From a virus, in the IMG/VR virus record IMGVR_UViG_3300023174_000730, positions 1-21,022 of that record: a stretch of 21,022 nucleotides of DNA; one strand, 5' to 3'. The notes under the pieces are model-generated. The model worked only from the letters and a program-made list of their open reading frames with translations, was not told the DNA's origin and did no database searches. The position numbers and the translations under genes are program-made. Below are positions 1-13,666 of this stretch, piece by piece (position 1 is the first letter of the stretch; every line of letters starts with the position of its first letter).

Positions 1-711
1 CAAAAAGTTGGTCGGCACATAAGGCGCTTCTGATGTTCTGCCAGTCATAGCCTCCCAGCGTTGGCGCTTAAATTCGTAATCCTTCTCGGCAAACGACTTT
101 TGACCAGTAGATTTTCCCTCAATCCAATCTGCCTTAAATCCTGACCAGCCCCTCATGCAACACATCTCCAAGGCAGCTTGCAAGGAAATGTTAGCTTTCT
201 TTGCCTCTCTGACAATGCCGTCCAATGCGCTTTGAGTGACTGCGGCTTTTTTCGTCTTGCGTAAAGTTAGCCAATCCTGCCAAACAGATTCCGTCACACC
301 GTCAGGTGGGGCGACTGTATTCTTCTTTGGTTTATGGTTATTGGTTATTGGTTGTTGGTTATTGGTTGGTTGAACGTCCGTTGAACGTCCGTTTAACCGC
401 CGTTCAGCAGATGCCTTACCAGCCTTAGAAGCCTGCTCAATTTTCCCTCTGAAATGGGCAATTTCTTTGTCGGCTCGAGCGTTTACCCAGCCATCTTCTG
501 TCAGACTAAAAAACGATTCAAGAACAAATTTAACTTCTGCCTCTTGGTCGCGCATACCGATCTGCCGTGCAACGGACGTTAAACCGCTGTTCAACGGGCG
601 TTCGTGCAAATAGTATTCGTCTAGGAGTCTGCGATAGGCCAAATCTTCAAGCAAAGATAGGCGCTGCGTGTGACTGGCGTAGTCACCGATATTGAACTGG
701 TAGTAGTACAT
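1..711 (-). CDS. DUF1376 (YdaU-type) phage replication protein, partial
   Basis: Reading leftward from the ATG at 711-709, the frame stays open for 237 codons to the window edge, so the C-terminus is missing. The N-terminus starts MYYYQFNIGDYASHTQRLS and continues with LLEDLAYRRLLDEYYL, the typical opening of the DUF1376 domain (about residues 1-70) of phage replication-initiation-type proteins. A basic stretch (KAGKASAERR) leads to an Asn/Gln-rich linker (NNQQPITNN, about residues 115-125), then a second domain with a conserved-looking WQDWLTLRKTKKA segment. The minus-strand AAGG 6 nt before the ATG is a plausible ribosome site. It lies downstream of the YdaS/Cro-like gene on the same strand, matching the cro-to-replication order of lambdoid phages. 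The gene carries two clusters of 11-bp repeats that may be the origin. Family assignment is by recognition of the N-terminal pattern; the replication role is inferred. Confidence 0.85.
   Translation of the reverse strand, partial: MYYYQFNIGDYASHTQRLSLLEDLAYRRLLDEYYLHERPLNSGLTSVARQIGMRDQEAEVKFVLESFFSLTEDGWVNARADKEIAHFRGKIEQASKAGKASAERRLNGRSTDVQPTNNQQPITNNHKPKKNTVAPPDGVTESVWQDWLTLRKTKKAAVTQSALDGIVREAKKANISLQAALEMCCMRGWSGFKADWIEGKSTGQKSFAEKDYEFKRQRWEAMTGRTSEAPYVPTNFL
336..404. repeat. Heptamer run plus three 11-bp iteron-like repeats (putative origin, part A)
   Basis: Positions 336-370 are five head-to-tail heptamers related to GGTTATT (copies at 336, 343 and 357 exact, those at 350 and 364 degenerate). 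Positions 372-382 and 383-393 are both GAACGTCCGTT, and 394-404 is TAACCGCCGTT. The 11-bp unit is near-palindromic (AAC..nn..GTT) and its period is not a multiple of three, so it is not explained by a repeated peptide. Iterons beside an A/T-rich unwinding element inside a replication gene is the lambda ori arrangement. That function is inferred. Confidence 0.5.
570..602. repeat. Second cluster of three 11-bp iteron-like repeats (putative origin, part B)
   Basis: Three abutting 11-mers, CAACGGACGTT (570-580), AAACCGCTGTT (581-591) and CAACGGGCGTT (592-602), share the pattern nAAC..n..GTT with the cluster at 372-404. AACGGACGTT is the exact reverse complement of the AACGTCCGTT core there. The 11-bp spacing places each copy on nearly the same face of the helix, as expected for protein-binding iterons. 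Confidence 0.5.
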
Positions 712-813
712 TGACAACCTTACGTTCTAGGTTAAGCGTTACTTGAAAGGAACAATTGGCAGGGTGGTAACGAATCACCTTTTCAGCCGCTAAGCCTAGC
801 CATTGCCCCAACT

Positions 814-993
814 CTAACTCAATTTCTGCGCTTCTGCAATCTGTTTCTTGAACTTGTAAACAAGCACCTGTTGCCAGCTTTTGGGTACTCCTCGCTGCCG
901 CCAGTTGCTGATGACGTTCTGTTTAACGTCAAGCATATAGGCCAATCTGCCCACGCCGCCAGCCGCTTTGATTGCAATTTCCAGTAAGTCCAT
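814..993 (-). CDS. YdaS/Cro-like HTH transcriptional regulator
   Basis: This 59-residue protein has the pattern of YdaS/Cro-like antitoxin-repressors: an AIKAAGGVGRLAYMLDV first half, then VKQNVISNWRQRGVPKSW, a helix-turn-helix with the recognition helix around QNVISNWRQRG. The frame extends to a TTG at 999, but the ATG at 993 fits better because a TATAAT box lies at 999-1004 and would put the transcript start at or next to this ATG, giving a leaderless message. It is the first gene leftward from the control region and precedes the replication gene, the position of cro in lambda. It probably binds one or both palindromes at 1005-1016 and 1093-1104. The fold is well supported; the operator assignment is inferred. 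Confidence 0.85.
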   Translation of the reverse strand: MDLLEIAIKAAGGVGRLAYMLDVKQNVISNWRQRGVPKSWQQVLVYKFKKQIAEAQKLS

Positions 994-998
994 GCCCA

Positions 999-1007
999 AT
1001 TATATCA
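999..1007 (-). promoter_or_regulatory. Leftward extended -10 promoter
   Basis: Read on the minus strand this is TGATATAAT, a perfect extended -10 (TGnTATAAT). No good -35 is present at the usual distance (CTTTTC or GCTTTT), as is tolerated with an extended -10. The predicted start falls at about 992-993, on the ATG of the YdaS-like gene. The element overlaps the operator at 1005-1016, so a bound repressor would occlude it. Confidence 0.65.
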
Positions 1008-1016
1008 CATTTGTGA
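1005..1016. promoter_or_regulatory. Operator palindrome, copy 1 (TCACATTTGTGA)
   Basis: TCACA-TT-TGTGA is a 5+5 inverted repeat with a 2-bp centre. An identical 12-mer lies at 1093-1104. It overlaps the upstream edge of the leftward extended -10, so it is placed as a repressor operator for that promoter. Confidence 0.6.
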
Positions 1017-1082
1017 GCATGAAAAGCCATTAAAAAAACCTATGACAACGCCAAACCGATAAAAATAATTGTTAAAAAAGAC

Positions 1083-1110
1083 TTGTCAGGCATCACATTT
1101 GTGATATAGT
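1083..1110 (+). promoter_or_regulatory. Rightward sigma70-type promoter of the early operon
   Basis: TTGTCA at 1083-1088 (one mismatch to TTGACA), a 16-bp spacer and TATAGT at 1105-1110 preceded by TGA make a strong sigma70 promoter with an extended -10 (TGATATAGT). An A/T-rich tract at about 1059-1082 could act as an UP element. The predicted start is near 1117. The operator at 1093-1104 lies in the spacer and touches the -10, so repression here is expected. Confidence 0.65.
1093..1104. promoter_or_regulatory. Operator palindrome, copy 2 (TCACATTTGTGA)
   Basis: This is an exact second copy of the 12-bp palindrome at 1005-1016, 88 bp away. It sits between the -35 and -10 of the rightward promoter. 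In each promoter the palindrome directly precedes TATArT, so the two promoters are built to the same plan in opposite directions. Confidence 0.6.
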
Positions 1111-1119
1111 TCACCCATG

Positions 1120-1143
1120 CCCTGAACTTCTCGGGGTCTTTTT
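1120..1143 (+). terminator. Leader hairpin with U-tract (attenuator-like)
   Basis: CCCTGA (1120-1125) can pair with TCGGGG (1131-1136), with one G-U pair and a 5-nt loop, followed by TCTTTTT to 1143. This has the form of a small intrinsic terminator between the rightward promoter and the first gene. It begins only a few nucleotides after the predicted start, which is unusually close for a terminator, so a 5' stabilising hairpin is an alternative. Confidence 0.45.
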
Positions 1144-3167: not shown

Positions 3168-3400
3168 CAGGCTACGAATCAAAAAAAGAGATGGCGCAAG
3201 CCAAAATTAATGGAATTAAACCAATGAAAATTGAAGTAATAAAAGACTATGCCCTGCCTTGTATGCTGGCAGAAAAGTGCCTTAAAGACGCGCACCAGTT
3301 CATGCTGTCTAATCAGCCAATCAAAGCAATGGAGGCGGGAGTAATTGCGATTAACCACATTCACGATATGCTGGATGCCATAGAAGAAGCACAAAAATGA
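3164..3400 (+). CDS. Small early protein, unknown function
   Basis: This protein has 78 residues from the ATG at 3164 that overlaps the stop of the membrane protein (ATGA). An in-frame ATG at 3113 would run through that gene's TM helix and is rejected. The sequence is helical, with MKIEVIKDYALPCMLAEKCL in the middle and a C-terminal helix around EAGVIAINHIHDMLDAIEEA. No motif is recognised. It is coupled to the next gene by a further ATGA at 3397-3400. Confidence 0.6.
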   Translation: MTGYESKKEMAQAKINGIKPMKIEVIKDYALPCMLAEKCLKDAHQFMLSNQPIKAMEAGVIAINHIHDMLDAIEEAQK

Positions 3401-3633
3401 GGGCAATGACAGAACGAATCAGGCCCATTCTTACCCAATATGAGGAAGGATTAACCGCACGGCACATAGCGGCATTGCTTGGCGTTCCTGCCGATGCGGT
3501 AAAACGATCTATATGCACTATGGCAGACGTTTACATTGATAGATGGACATCACACACCGAGGGCGGTATGTACGTCCCTGTTTACGTCAAAGTAGATGTA
3601 CCAGAGAATTGTCCTAAACCGGAGGAAAAATGA
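3397..3633 (+). CDS. Small HTH-type protein
   Basis: This is a 78-residue protein. TERIRPILTQYEEGLTARHI followed by AALLGVPADAVKRSICTM reads as a helix-turn-helix (helix, LGVPADAV turn, recognition helix VKRSICTM), with a C-terminal beta wing (GGMYVPVYVKVDV). Start at 3397 is by ATGA coupling; a second ATG at 3406 (MTERIRP) is an equally possible start. It is probably a DNA-binding regulator in the early operon. The family is not identified more precisely. Confidence 0.65.
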   Translation: MRAMTERIRPILTQYEEGLTARHIAALLGVPADAVKRSICTMADVYIDRWTSHTEGGMYVPVYVKVDVPENCPKPEEK

Positions 3634-11678: not shown

Positions 11679-13666
11679 TAATTTTCTGCTCCGCTTGATT
11701 TCAGATTTGCCGAAACAATCACGGCGTTCACAGGGTCAGAGATTGACACCTCAAACACTCGATCACGGGCCATGCCCAAACGCCGCCAAATAGCACGATT
11801 CTTATATTTGCCTAGCTGACCAATGCTTGTCCAATGCTCATTAGACCAAGTAGAACCACCGTCATTAGACCAACGCAACATTGCCTTGGGATTGGTGGTA
11901 TTAACTATCGGCGTAAGTGAATTTGCAACACCTAAAACAAACGTTGAAATCGCAGGGATTGTCAATGTTTGGTTACTTATGATTGTGTAATTTACACCAA
12001 GATAGCTTGTGTTTGTTGTCCCAAAAGATAAGCCAGTTGTGCCAACGCCAGGCTGAAACTGAATCTGCAACTCATCAAAATATTGACGCTGCATATCAGT
12101 AATCAGGTGGGGAGCCCTACGCAGTCTGCGGACGTTCGTTCCATTGTCTGTGTAATTTTGTTTGTCCAAGGAATAAATCTTGCCGTTGGAGTAATCACCG
12201 ACAAGAACTTTGCCTTGGAATGAGGCAGAGCAATTGCTCCAATGGCGCATATATGTTCCATCAGAGGCCATGCCAAGCCATTTATGCCACATTCCTGTGG
12301 TCACATCAAACGCCCAAGTTAGATTCAAAGTCGGGAATGTACAGACGTACACTTCGTGGCCTTCTAACTGATATGTGTAGGCAATAGCATCATCAATGTA
12401 TTGATTTGTAAGGGTGTTTTCTACCGCGTGAGTTGATATACGTTGTGGTATATATCCCTGCATTTGCATAATCTGCGCTTGACCACGGTTGTTCCTTGAA
12501 ACGTAAGCAAAGGAATTACCTAGTCGGGAAACCGAGAATTGTGCCGCAATACCGTGCTGGGTAGATGTTCCAGGGATACGTTGGAAAGGGAAAGGAACTG
12601 CGCCCACATCCGTCCAAACCTCAGAGGATGCCTCGCCCATCAAATAAACTTCGCGGTGGTCAACAATTAGGGCCACTAATTTATCAGGCGCACCATCTTT
12701 CAATGCGTAGGATGTGCTTGTTGAAATTGGGCTTAAAAGGTTAGATGAACCCCATTGCTGACTGCCTGGGTTATTGTAAACAAAATAGTTATCAACAATA
12801 TCGACCGATGTGCCGCCGCTAAATGCGCCATCCGAACTAGGCAAAACGCTAAAGTTAAGCGCATACATTGTGATGCCGGTAACAATAGTGTGAGCCGTGC
12901 TGATCGTGTAAGTGCCTATTCCACCAGTGCCTGTGCCCAAAGCCGTAATAATCGTGCCTGCGGTAATGCCGGCCCCTTGTAGGGTTTGCCCTAAGTAAAT
13001 AGTACCAGAAGCTACTGCGGAAACAGTAAGGGTAGTTCCCGCTATTGTTGCTGTAAACCGAGCGCCTACCGCAGCAGAAGTCATGGTTTCGGCTGATACG
13101 GTTTGGGACAAATTGATTGTGTAAGTACCAGTTCCACCAGTACCAGTTCCCAAAGCAGTAATCACAGTCTCTGCCGTGATACCAATCCCTGTCAAAGATT
13201 GATGGGCGGTAATTGTGCCGCTACTAACTTGGGTAACTGTTAGGGTTGTGCCGCTGATAGAACCCGTAAAAACGGCGTTTGCGGGGCTAGAAATGCGCCA
13301 TGTGTAGCGATAGGCTCCGTCAACAATATAGGCGTTAATTCCGTTGTCAGAGATGCCAACACGACCCGATGATGAGTTAAGAATACCGACTACGGTTGCC
13401 GACAGGTTAGACGTAAAGACGTAGACGTAAGGCCCGCAGACCACAACCATTTGACTACCGCCCGACAAAGTACGCATATTGCGAACTTCGGCGTTGTTTA
13501 ACACAGCCGCTAGGGTTAAACCTGGGGTCGGATAAAGCGCAACGATGCCCCGAGTACCAGGCTCTTTAAGAGGATCAATTTCGGGAAAGAAATTAATACA
13601 TTCTTGCGATTCCTGATAAATCGATGGTGCTTCGTACGATGGGCCTACAAATCCGAATTCGGGCAT
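11678..13666 (-). CDS. gp10-like packaged-DNA stabilization protein with two inserted beta modules
   Basis: The protein has 662 residues and AAAGGA upstream of its ATG. The N-terminus ([20 protein letters not shown] followed by [10 protein letters not shown] and LYPTPGL) and later [19 protein letters not shown] and [15 protein letters not shown] segments match the P22 gp10/phage-stabilisation family, which forms the tail ring below gp4 and keeps packaged DNA in the head. Between residues 133-197 and 204-267 it carries two tandem beta-rich repeats ([12 protein letters not shown]... and [12 protein letters not shown]..., both with ALGTGTGG and GTYTI). These are absent from P22 gp10 as far as I recall and look inserted. 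The remainder resembles a beta-propeller-like body. It follows the gp4-like gene with a 9-nt gap. Confidence 0.85.
12866..13270 (-). repeat. Two tandem copies of a beta-repeat module inside the gp10-like gene
   Basis: Copy 1 spans about 13076-13270 (residues 133-197) and copy 2 about 12866-13057 (residues 204-267). Each reads FT(G/A)(S/T)[29 protein letters not shown]. The protein similarity is clear while the DNA has diverged, so the duplication is not recent. A third relative is in the gp4-like gene. Confidence 0.75.

Follow-up and report, generated by a model that had tools for sequence, protein, structure and literature searches.

We describe a control region in a viral DNA record of 21,022 bp (the window, i.e., the whole stretch that was analyzed). 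It is probably a lambdoid early control region without cI or integrase, in which PL and PR stand back to back under the predicted binding and repression by Cro alone, a negative-feedback governor. A single Cro-like protein of 59 residues probably governs both promoters and hence nearly the whole genome. This reading draws on the anatomy of the region, its conservation, the homology of the protein, the absence of the tested repressor and integrase families, and synteny with cI-bearing relatives, all of which were observed. The window is a separate viral record and a 21-kb fragment, and genome-wide absences therefore rest on its relatives. A sequence-only reading had called the region a switch; that word is too strong, because nothing makes the region bistable without cI, and the family has single operators and neither a CI-type repressor nor an integrase in the contigs tested.

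Operators and promoters

The 12-mer TCACATTTGTGA occurs in two exact copies in the window, at 1005-1016 (near operator, OR-like) and 1093-1104 (far operator, OL-like), 88 bp apart from start to start, against a mean of 0.00 copies in 100 dinucleotide shuffles. It is an imperfect palindrome (TCACA-TT-TGTGA) with the asymmetry confined to the central two bases, and its core is conserved at both sites among relatives. The near copy directly precedes a leftward −10 box (TGA-TATAAT; box at 999-1004, minus strand) and the far copy a rightward one (TGA-TATAGT; box at 1105-1110, plus strand); both boxes are extended because TGA, the end of the operator, stands before each. The rightward promoter has a −35 box, TTGTCA (1083-1088, plus strand; 16-nt spacer, 10/12 match), and no −35 was recognizable for the leftward promoter. 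The interval between the operators is free of genes, the nearest coding starts being at 993 (minus) and 1156 (plus). All of this agrees with the sequence-only reading, which had noted the 12-mer exactly twice, 88 bp apart, each copy directly before one of two mirrored extended −10 boxes, with no repressor gene between them; a search for further copies left the window count at two.

The start sites at both promoters are predictions from sequence. The leftward transcript is predicted to start at, or no more than 1 nt from, the cro ATG, which would give a leaderless cro mRNA; in aligned relatives, the gap between the −10 box and the cro ATG is 5 to 6 nt. The rightward transcript is predicted to start at ∼1117, giving a 5′-terminal AUG. 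An AUG is thus predicted at or beside both divergent starts (991-1004 and 1105-1119).

The Cro-like protein

The cro-like gene (814-993, minus strand; ATG at 993-991) encodes 59 amino acids. Its product matches the Pfam families YdaS_toxin (PF15943; E value, 9.9e-6) and P22_Cro (PF14549; E value, 0.0033), both under the curated cutoffs (25.7 versus 30 and 17.6 versus 30.2 bits, respectively), and for this reason the claim of homology rests on a PDB profile match and on synteny. An 18-member profile matched 3bd1, the Cro of Xfaso 1 from a Xylella prophage (E value, 6.4e-8), which is also the best Foldseek match (TM score, 0.68; E value, 0.09, weak by itself) of an AlphaFold model with five helices (pLDDT, 93). 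By profile and fold together, 3bd1 is the closest solved structure (38% identical over 47 columns), and on profile and model evidence the protein is a Cro homolog with the small helix-turn-helix (HTH) fold of the Cro class. The gene takes the place of a Cro or YdaS gene, just 3′ of an operator-overlapped promoter and 5′ of replication genes. Searches of isolate phages with the protein gave only weak Pseudomonas matches.

YdaS proteins have been argued to be Cro analogs and not toxins (PMC5917428, PMC8630535), which makes the Pfam name misleading, and YdaS of CP-933P was shown to be a Cro analog that gives a footprint on its own promoter region and acts as a repressor of PL (PMC8630535). A toxin reading was rejected on gene context and this literature. 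No adjacent ydaT of a YdaS-YdaT toxin-antitoxin pair was found, the leftward neighbor being a DUF1376/primosomal gene. The label "YdaS-like" given in the sequence-only reading thus stands as a Pfam match, and the name is corrected to Cro homolog on the PDB profile and fold.

Conservation among relatives

A search with the 59-residue protein returned 53 viral loci, and later searches added further loci; after duplicate removal, the scored set comprised 69 distinct close relatives, counting the copy in the window. Two operators were found automatically in 69/69 and by eye in one more (L275), which was kept apart because its protein start reads MKIL. The near operator lies 23 to 25 bp before the cro ATG, and the far operator lies further upstream, facing out. 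The palindromes are of the type CAC[A/G]NN[T/C]GTG (fuller consensus, [T/A]CAC[A/G]NN[T/C]GTG[A/T]), and the CAC/GTG core is invariant among the 69 save for one base in the near site of L263; the far site was located by this core, so that its invariance is partly by construction, and no member lacked a far site. Such conservation makes a chance origin of the operators untenable. Each promoter has one operator in the 69 scored relatives, without the OR/OL multiplicity of a lambda-type bistable switch.

Distant homologs (L287 to L289 and L299) have cro equally far from the near operator and carry related TCACTnnAGTGA-type sites. A DNA search with the motif alone retrieved phages whose Cro-like proteins contain an SNW[RK]xRG-type helix (L060, L097, L106, L109, L121, L136, L146, L150, L158, and L162; some matches were weak). 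Three to five dispersed TCACANNTGTGATATA promoter-operators lie on one strand in L136, L139, and L121, several followed by a leader hairpin, and possibly form an operator regulon; the Cro proteins of L136 and L121 are of the P22 type. The related phage MW202520, which encodes a different Cro-like protein, lacks the motif in its divergent region and was rejected as a second case with its own paired operators, since that region has no paired palindrome.

Origin and lysogeny functions

Three temperate relatives (G018, G019, and G020) encode an integrase, a divergent HTH-S24 CI, and a Cro that is 50 to 60% identical over the aligned part, with the near operator at −24/−25 from the cro ATG and further operators present; G020 also has ERF leftward. 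The order in G018 is ERF (leftward), OL sites (L308:12069 and 12093), higBA-like genes, cI (12873-13571), OR sites, cro, two small open reading frames (ORFs), and a primosomal gene, with identities to the window of 79% over 124 amino acids (ERF), 60% over 48 amino acids (cro), and 53% (primosomal). The OL-cI-OR-cro order recurs in two bacterial contigs, one from Comamonas testosteroni (L322) and one labeled Pantoea sp. 18069; a wider profile scan of bacterial genomes gave only two loci, both cI-bearing prophages. The analogy to lambda PL and PR drawn in the sequence-only reading is borne out by this synteny, with cI lying between OL and OR in the temperate relatives.

Sequence comparison makes the control region best read as an immunity region of the lambda type from which cI has been lost, and PL and PR would therefore stand back to back. 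In the simplest history, which we infer, loss of cI and its neighbors joined PL to PR; recombinational replacement would look alike.

No integrase was found in 26 family contigs with models that find it in the temperate relatives, no S24 repressor in 20 (detected in the temperate relatives), no HTH_19 in 16 (matches in 3/3 temperate controls), no resolvase in 16, and no HTH_3 in the family contigs tested. A CI-like repressor or integrase encoded elsewhere in the genome was thus not found in the circular and near-complete relatives tested. A scan of 84,980 bacterial and archaeal genomes with short exact peptide patterns did not turn up any close-family relative. The phages form an abundant environmental group that is apparently purely lytic, the strictly lytic life style being deduced from these results.

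Genome map and rightward leader

Leftward, cro is followed by a primosomal/O-like replication gene (DUF1376; 1-717, minus strand) that runs off the contig and was identified by family match. Rightward, a Shine-Dalgarno sequence (AGGAG, 1144-1148) precedes a first ORF of 70 amino acids without a family match (1156-1368), and the PL-like operon includes an ERF single-strand annealing protein (1723-2322; Pfam ERF E value, 1.3e-21), all on the plus strand. Toward the end of the right arm (3397-3633, plus strand), a small HTH protein has weak similarity to sigma-70 region 4 and HTH_23, and a similar gene lies at the equivalent position in G001 and G003.

Several family contigs have terminal repeats of 76 to 127 bp and are probably complete circles. 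On circular maps, the two operons that start at the control region span most of the map (∼28 kb in the cro direction and ∼3 to 5 kb in the ERF direction), a coverage based on simple ORF picking, with a few small exceptions remaining. In one contig, G010 (33,392 bp), both the ERF gene and the operator pair occur twice (near 15.5 kb and 22.3 kb), the copies facing opposite ways; either chimeric assembly or an inverted duplication is the probable cause.

The predicted rightward RNA begins with the AUG at ∼1117, followed by a hairpin (GCCCTGA-acttc-TCGGGGT; 1119-1137, plus strand), UCUUUUU (U-tract at 1139-1143), and the Shine-Dalgarno sequence. All distinct leader variants fold (26/26); L217 lacks the element, and L012 has it but escaped the search pattern. 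Both structural classes show compensatory changes, at two pairs each and in small counts, and shifting the pairing by 1 to 3 columns destroys it. The hairpin may act in early attenuation or mRNA protection. An Rfam scan of the window gave no match, and a leaderless mini-ORF (AUG CCC UGA) was rejected as an explanation because its codons vary while the hairpin is conserved. The PL RNA of at least two temperate relatives also has a hairpin near its start. A second complete operator-promoter-hairpin cassette lies 0.9 to 2.3 kb into the right arm in 14 of the 63 members with enough sequence; carriers include L035, L044, L047, L051, L073, L148, L259, L260, L262, and L271.

Operator spacing

The spacer between the operators (1017-1092) has a central conserved block and T-tracts about one helical turn (∼10 bp) apart. 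Among the 69 relatives, the operators are separated only by 56 to 57 (n = 4), 67 to 68 (n = 18), 78 to 79 (n = 6), 87 to 89 (n = 40), or 99 bp (n = 1), distances that are whole helical turns. Measured against a 10.5-bp helix, they share one common phase (R = 0.93), compared with no phase (R = 0.08) for the gap from the cro stop to the next ORF, and 0.055% of random five-center sets fit equally well. The short spacers share a common block, TAGGNNNTTTCCCTAA, with a perfect palindrome, TAGGGATTTCCCTA, in some; this block could be bound by another protein.

The conserved rotational phase of both promoter-operators hints at one joint nucleoprotein complex, and it is suggestive but unproven given two considerations. 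At 10.5 bp per turn, the operators are ∼0.4 turn out of register, which is evidence against a simple same-face loop; at 11 bp per turn, they are nearly in register. The second is that whole-turn spacing may have come from mutation, as T-tract units of ∼10 to 11 bp were gained or lost, together with recombination among a few old modules and without selection for phase, an account that we take seriously while rating it somewhat below an even chance. The T-tract periodicity fits it, and there are only about five independent length classes; these classes are dispersed over the cro tree (at least 23 changes, on a tree that is weak owing to the short cro alignment), from which we conclude that spacers recombine as swapped modules. 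Yet single-base length differences occur within every multimember class while between-class lengths are absent, and long (87 to 89 and 99 bp) and short (57 to 79 bp) spacers align poorly yet have one phase in common. The unphased comparison gap and the rarity of comparably fitting random sets also speak against it. Cro might sit on both operators, with rotational phase held by the curved spacer, forming one looped or bridged complex that would silence the two arms together and with them the entire genome, a loop-based cooperativity by Cro without CI; we consider this rather unlikely.

Proposed control and alternatives

In the proposed scheme, both promoters would be active early after infection. 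PR (leftward in the window) would drive cro, from an apparently leaderless mRNA, and replication, followed on the circular map by nin, packaging, structure, and lysis, and PL (rightward) would drive the ERF recombination operon. Accumulating Cro would turn down both arms in a negative feedback, with no choice between lysis and lysogeny. At each promoter, the TG of the extended −10 box comes from the end of the single operator, and an operator-bound Cro dimer should therefore exclude RNA polymerase directly. If most genes depend on PR, late genes would also be silenced under strong Cro repression; antiterminator Q (PF06530) was not found in a search with a weak control, and no late promoter was identified.

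The sequence-only reading had left two options, a YdaS-like protein acting on both arms or a repressor encoded elsewhere. Cro homology and synteny favor the first, as a predicted control, and the second is disfavored because no S24 or HTH_19 repressor was found in the circular and near-complete relatives. In a version of the second option, the phages would be temperate by another route, with a repressor of an unrecognized family, or one from the host or another prophage, binding the operators and Cro being one of two competitors. In its favor, the operator positions are those expected of a lambda-type CI, family matches are lacking for many of the small early genes examined, and the right arm encodes the small HTH protein at 3397-3633. 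Searches of family contigs, with controls that worked, nonetheless found no tyrosine integrase, resolvase, S24, HTH_3, or HTH_19, the short-peptide scan of the 84,980 cellular genomes found no close-family relative, and we judge this route improbable; these phages may have a nonintegrating prophage state. CRP sites contain TGTGA/TCACA half-sites, as do the operators, and a global regulator of the host, CRP for example, might thus bind the palindromes in place of the phage protein. The half-site order is inverted, however (TCACA-N2-TGTGA in the window versus the TGTGA-N6-TCACA that CRP requires), and a CRP site was rejected on this ground. Sites of this kind also occur beside the homologous cro genes of other phages and prophages, and the inner operator base varies with Cro type (CACA in the window and mostly CACT in G019 and G020). 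A host regulator is accordingly a very remote prospect.

Comparison with known systems and significance

The closest known systems include the lambda-type immunity region, with which this family shares divergent PL-like recombination and PR-like cro-replication operons, operators overlapping both promoters, and Cro followed by replication genes. The family differs in lacking cI (or rex/higBA) and integrase, in having one operator per promoter against two or three, and in an OL-OR distance of 56 to 99 bp, compared with ∼1.2 to 2 kb in temperate relatives. Experiments on CP-933P YdaS, a Cro analog named for Pfam YdaS_toxin, showed binding to its own promoter region and repression of its PR and PL, but CP-933P has a CI-like PaaR2 and a CII-like YdaT, and its four 18-bp inverted repeats differ in sequence (PMC8630535). 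The telomere phage PY54 is similar in that its Cro has a single operator, of 16 bp in PY54, and its cro mRNA is leaderless, whereas its Cro is reported to repress cI and not itself, and a prophage repressor is present (PMC4488713). A naturally cI-less, Cro-only lambdoid region had no match in the open-license literature, which is weak evidence of novelty. What is new is Cro without CI and PL and PR back to back; the component parts are already known.

The family represents a widespread, naturally CI-free lambdoid lineage, known from no fewer than 69 distinct control regions, that would allow the solo action of Cro to be studied. Its spacers form a natural length series of 5 to 9 helical turns that could serve to test the need for in-phase Cro operators, and its cI-bearing relatives provide a concrete comparison for how temperate phages may turn lytic.
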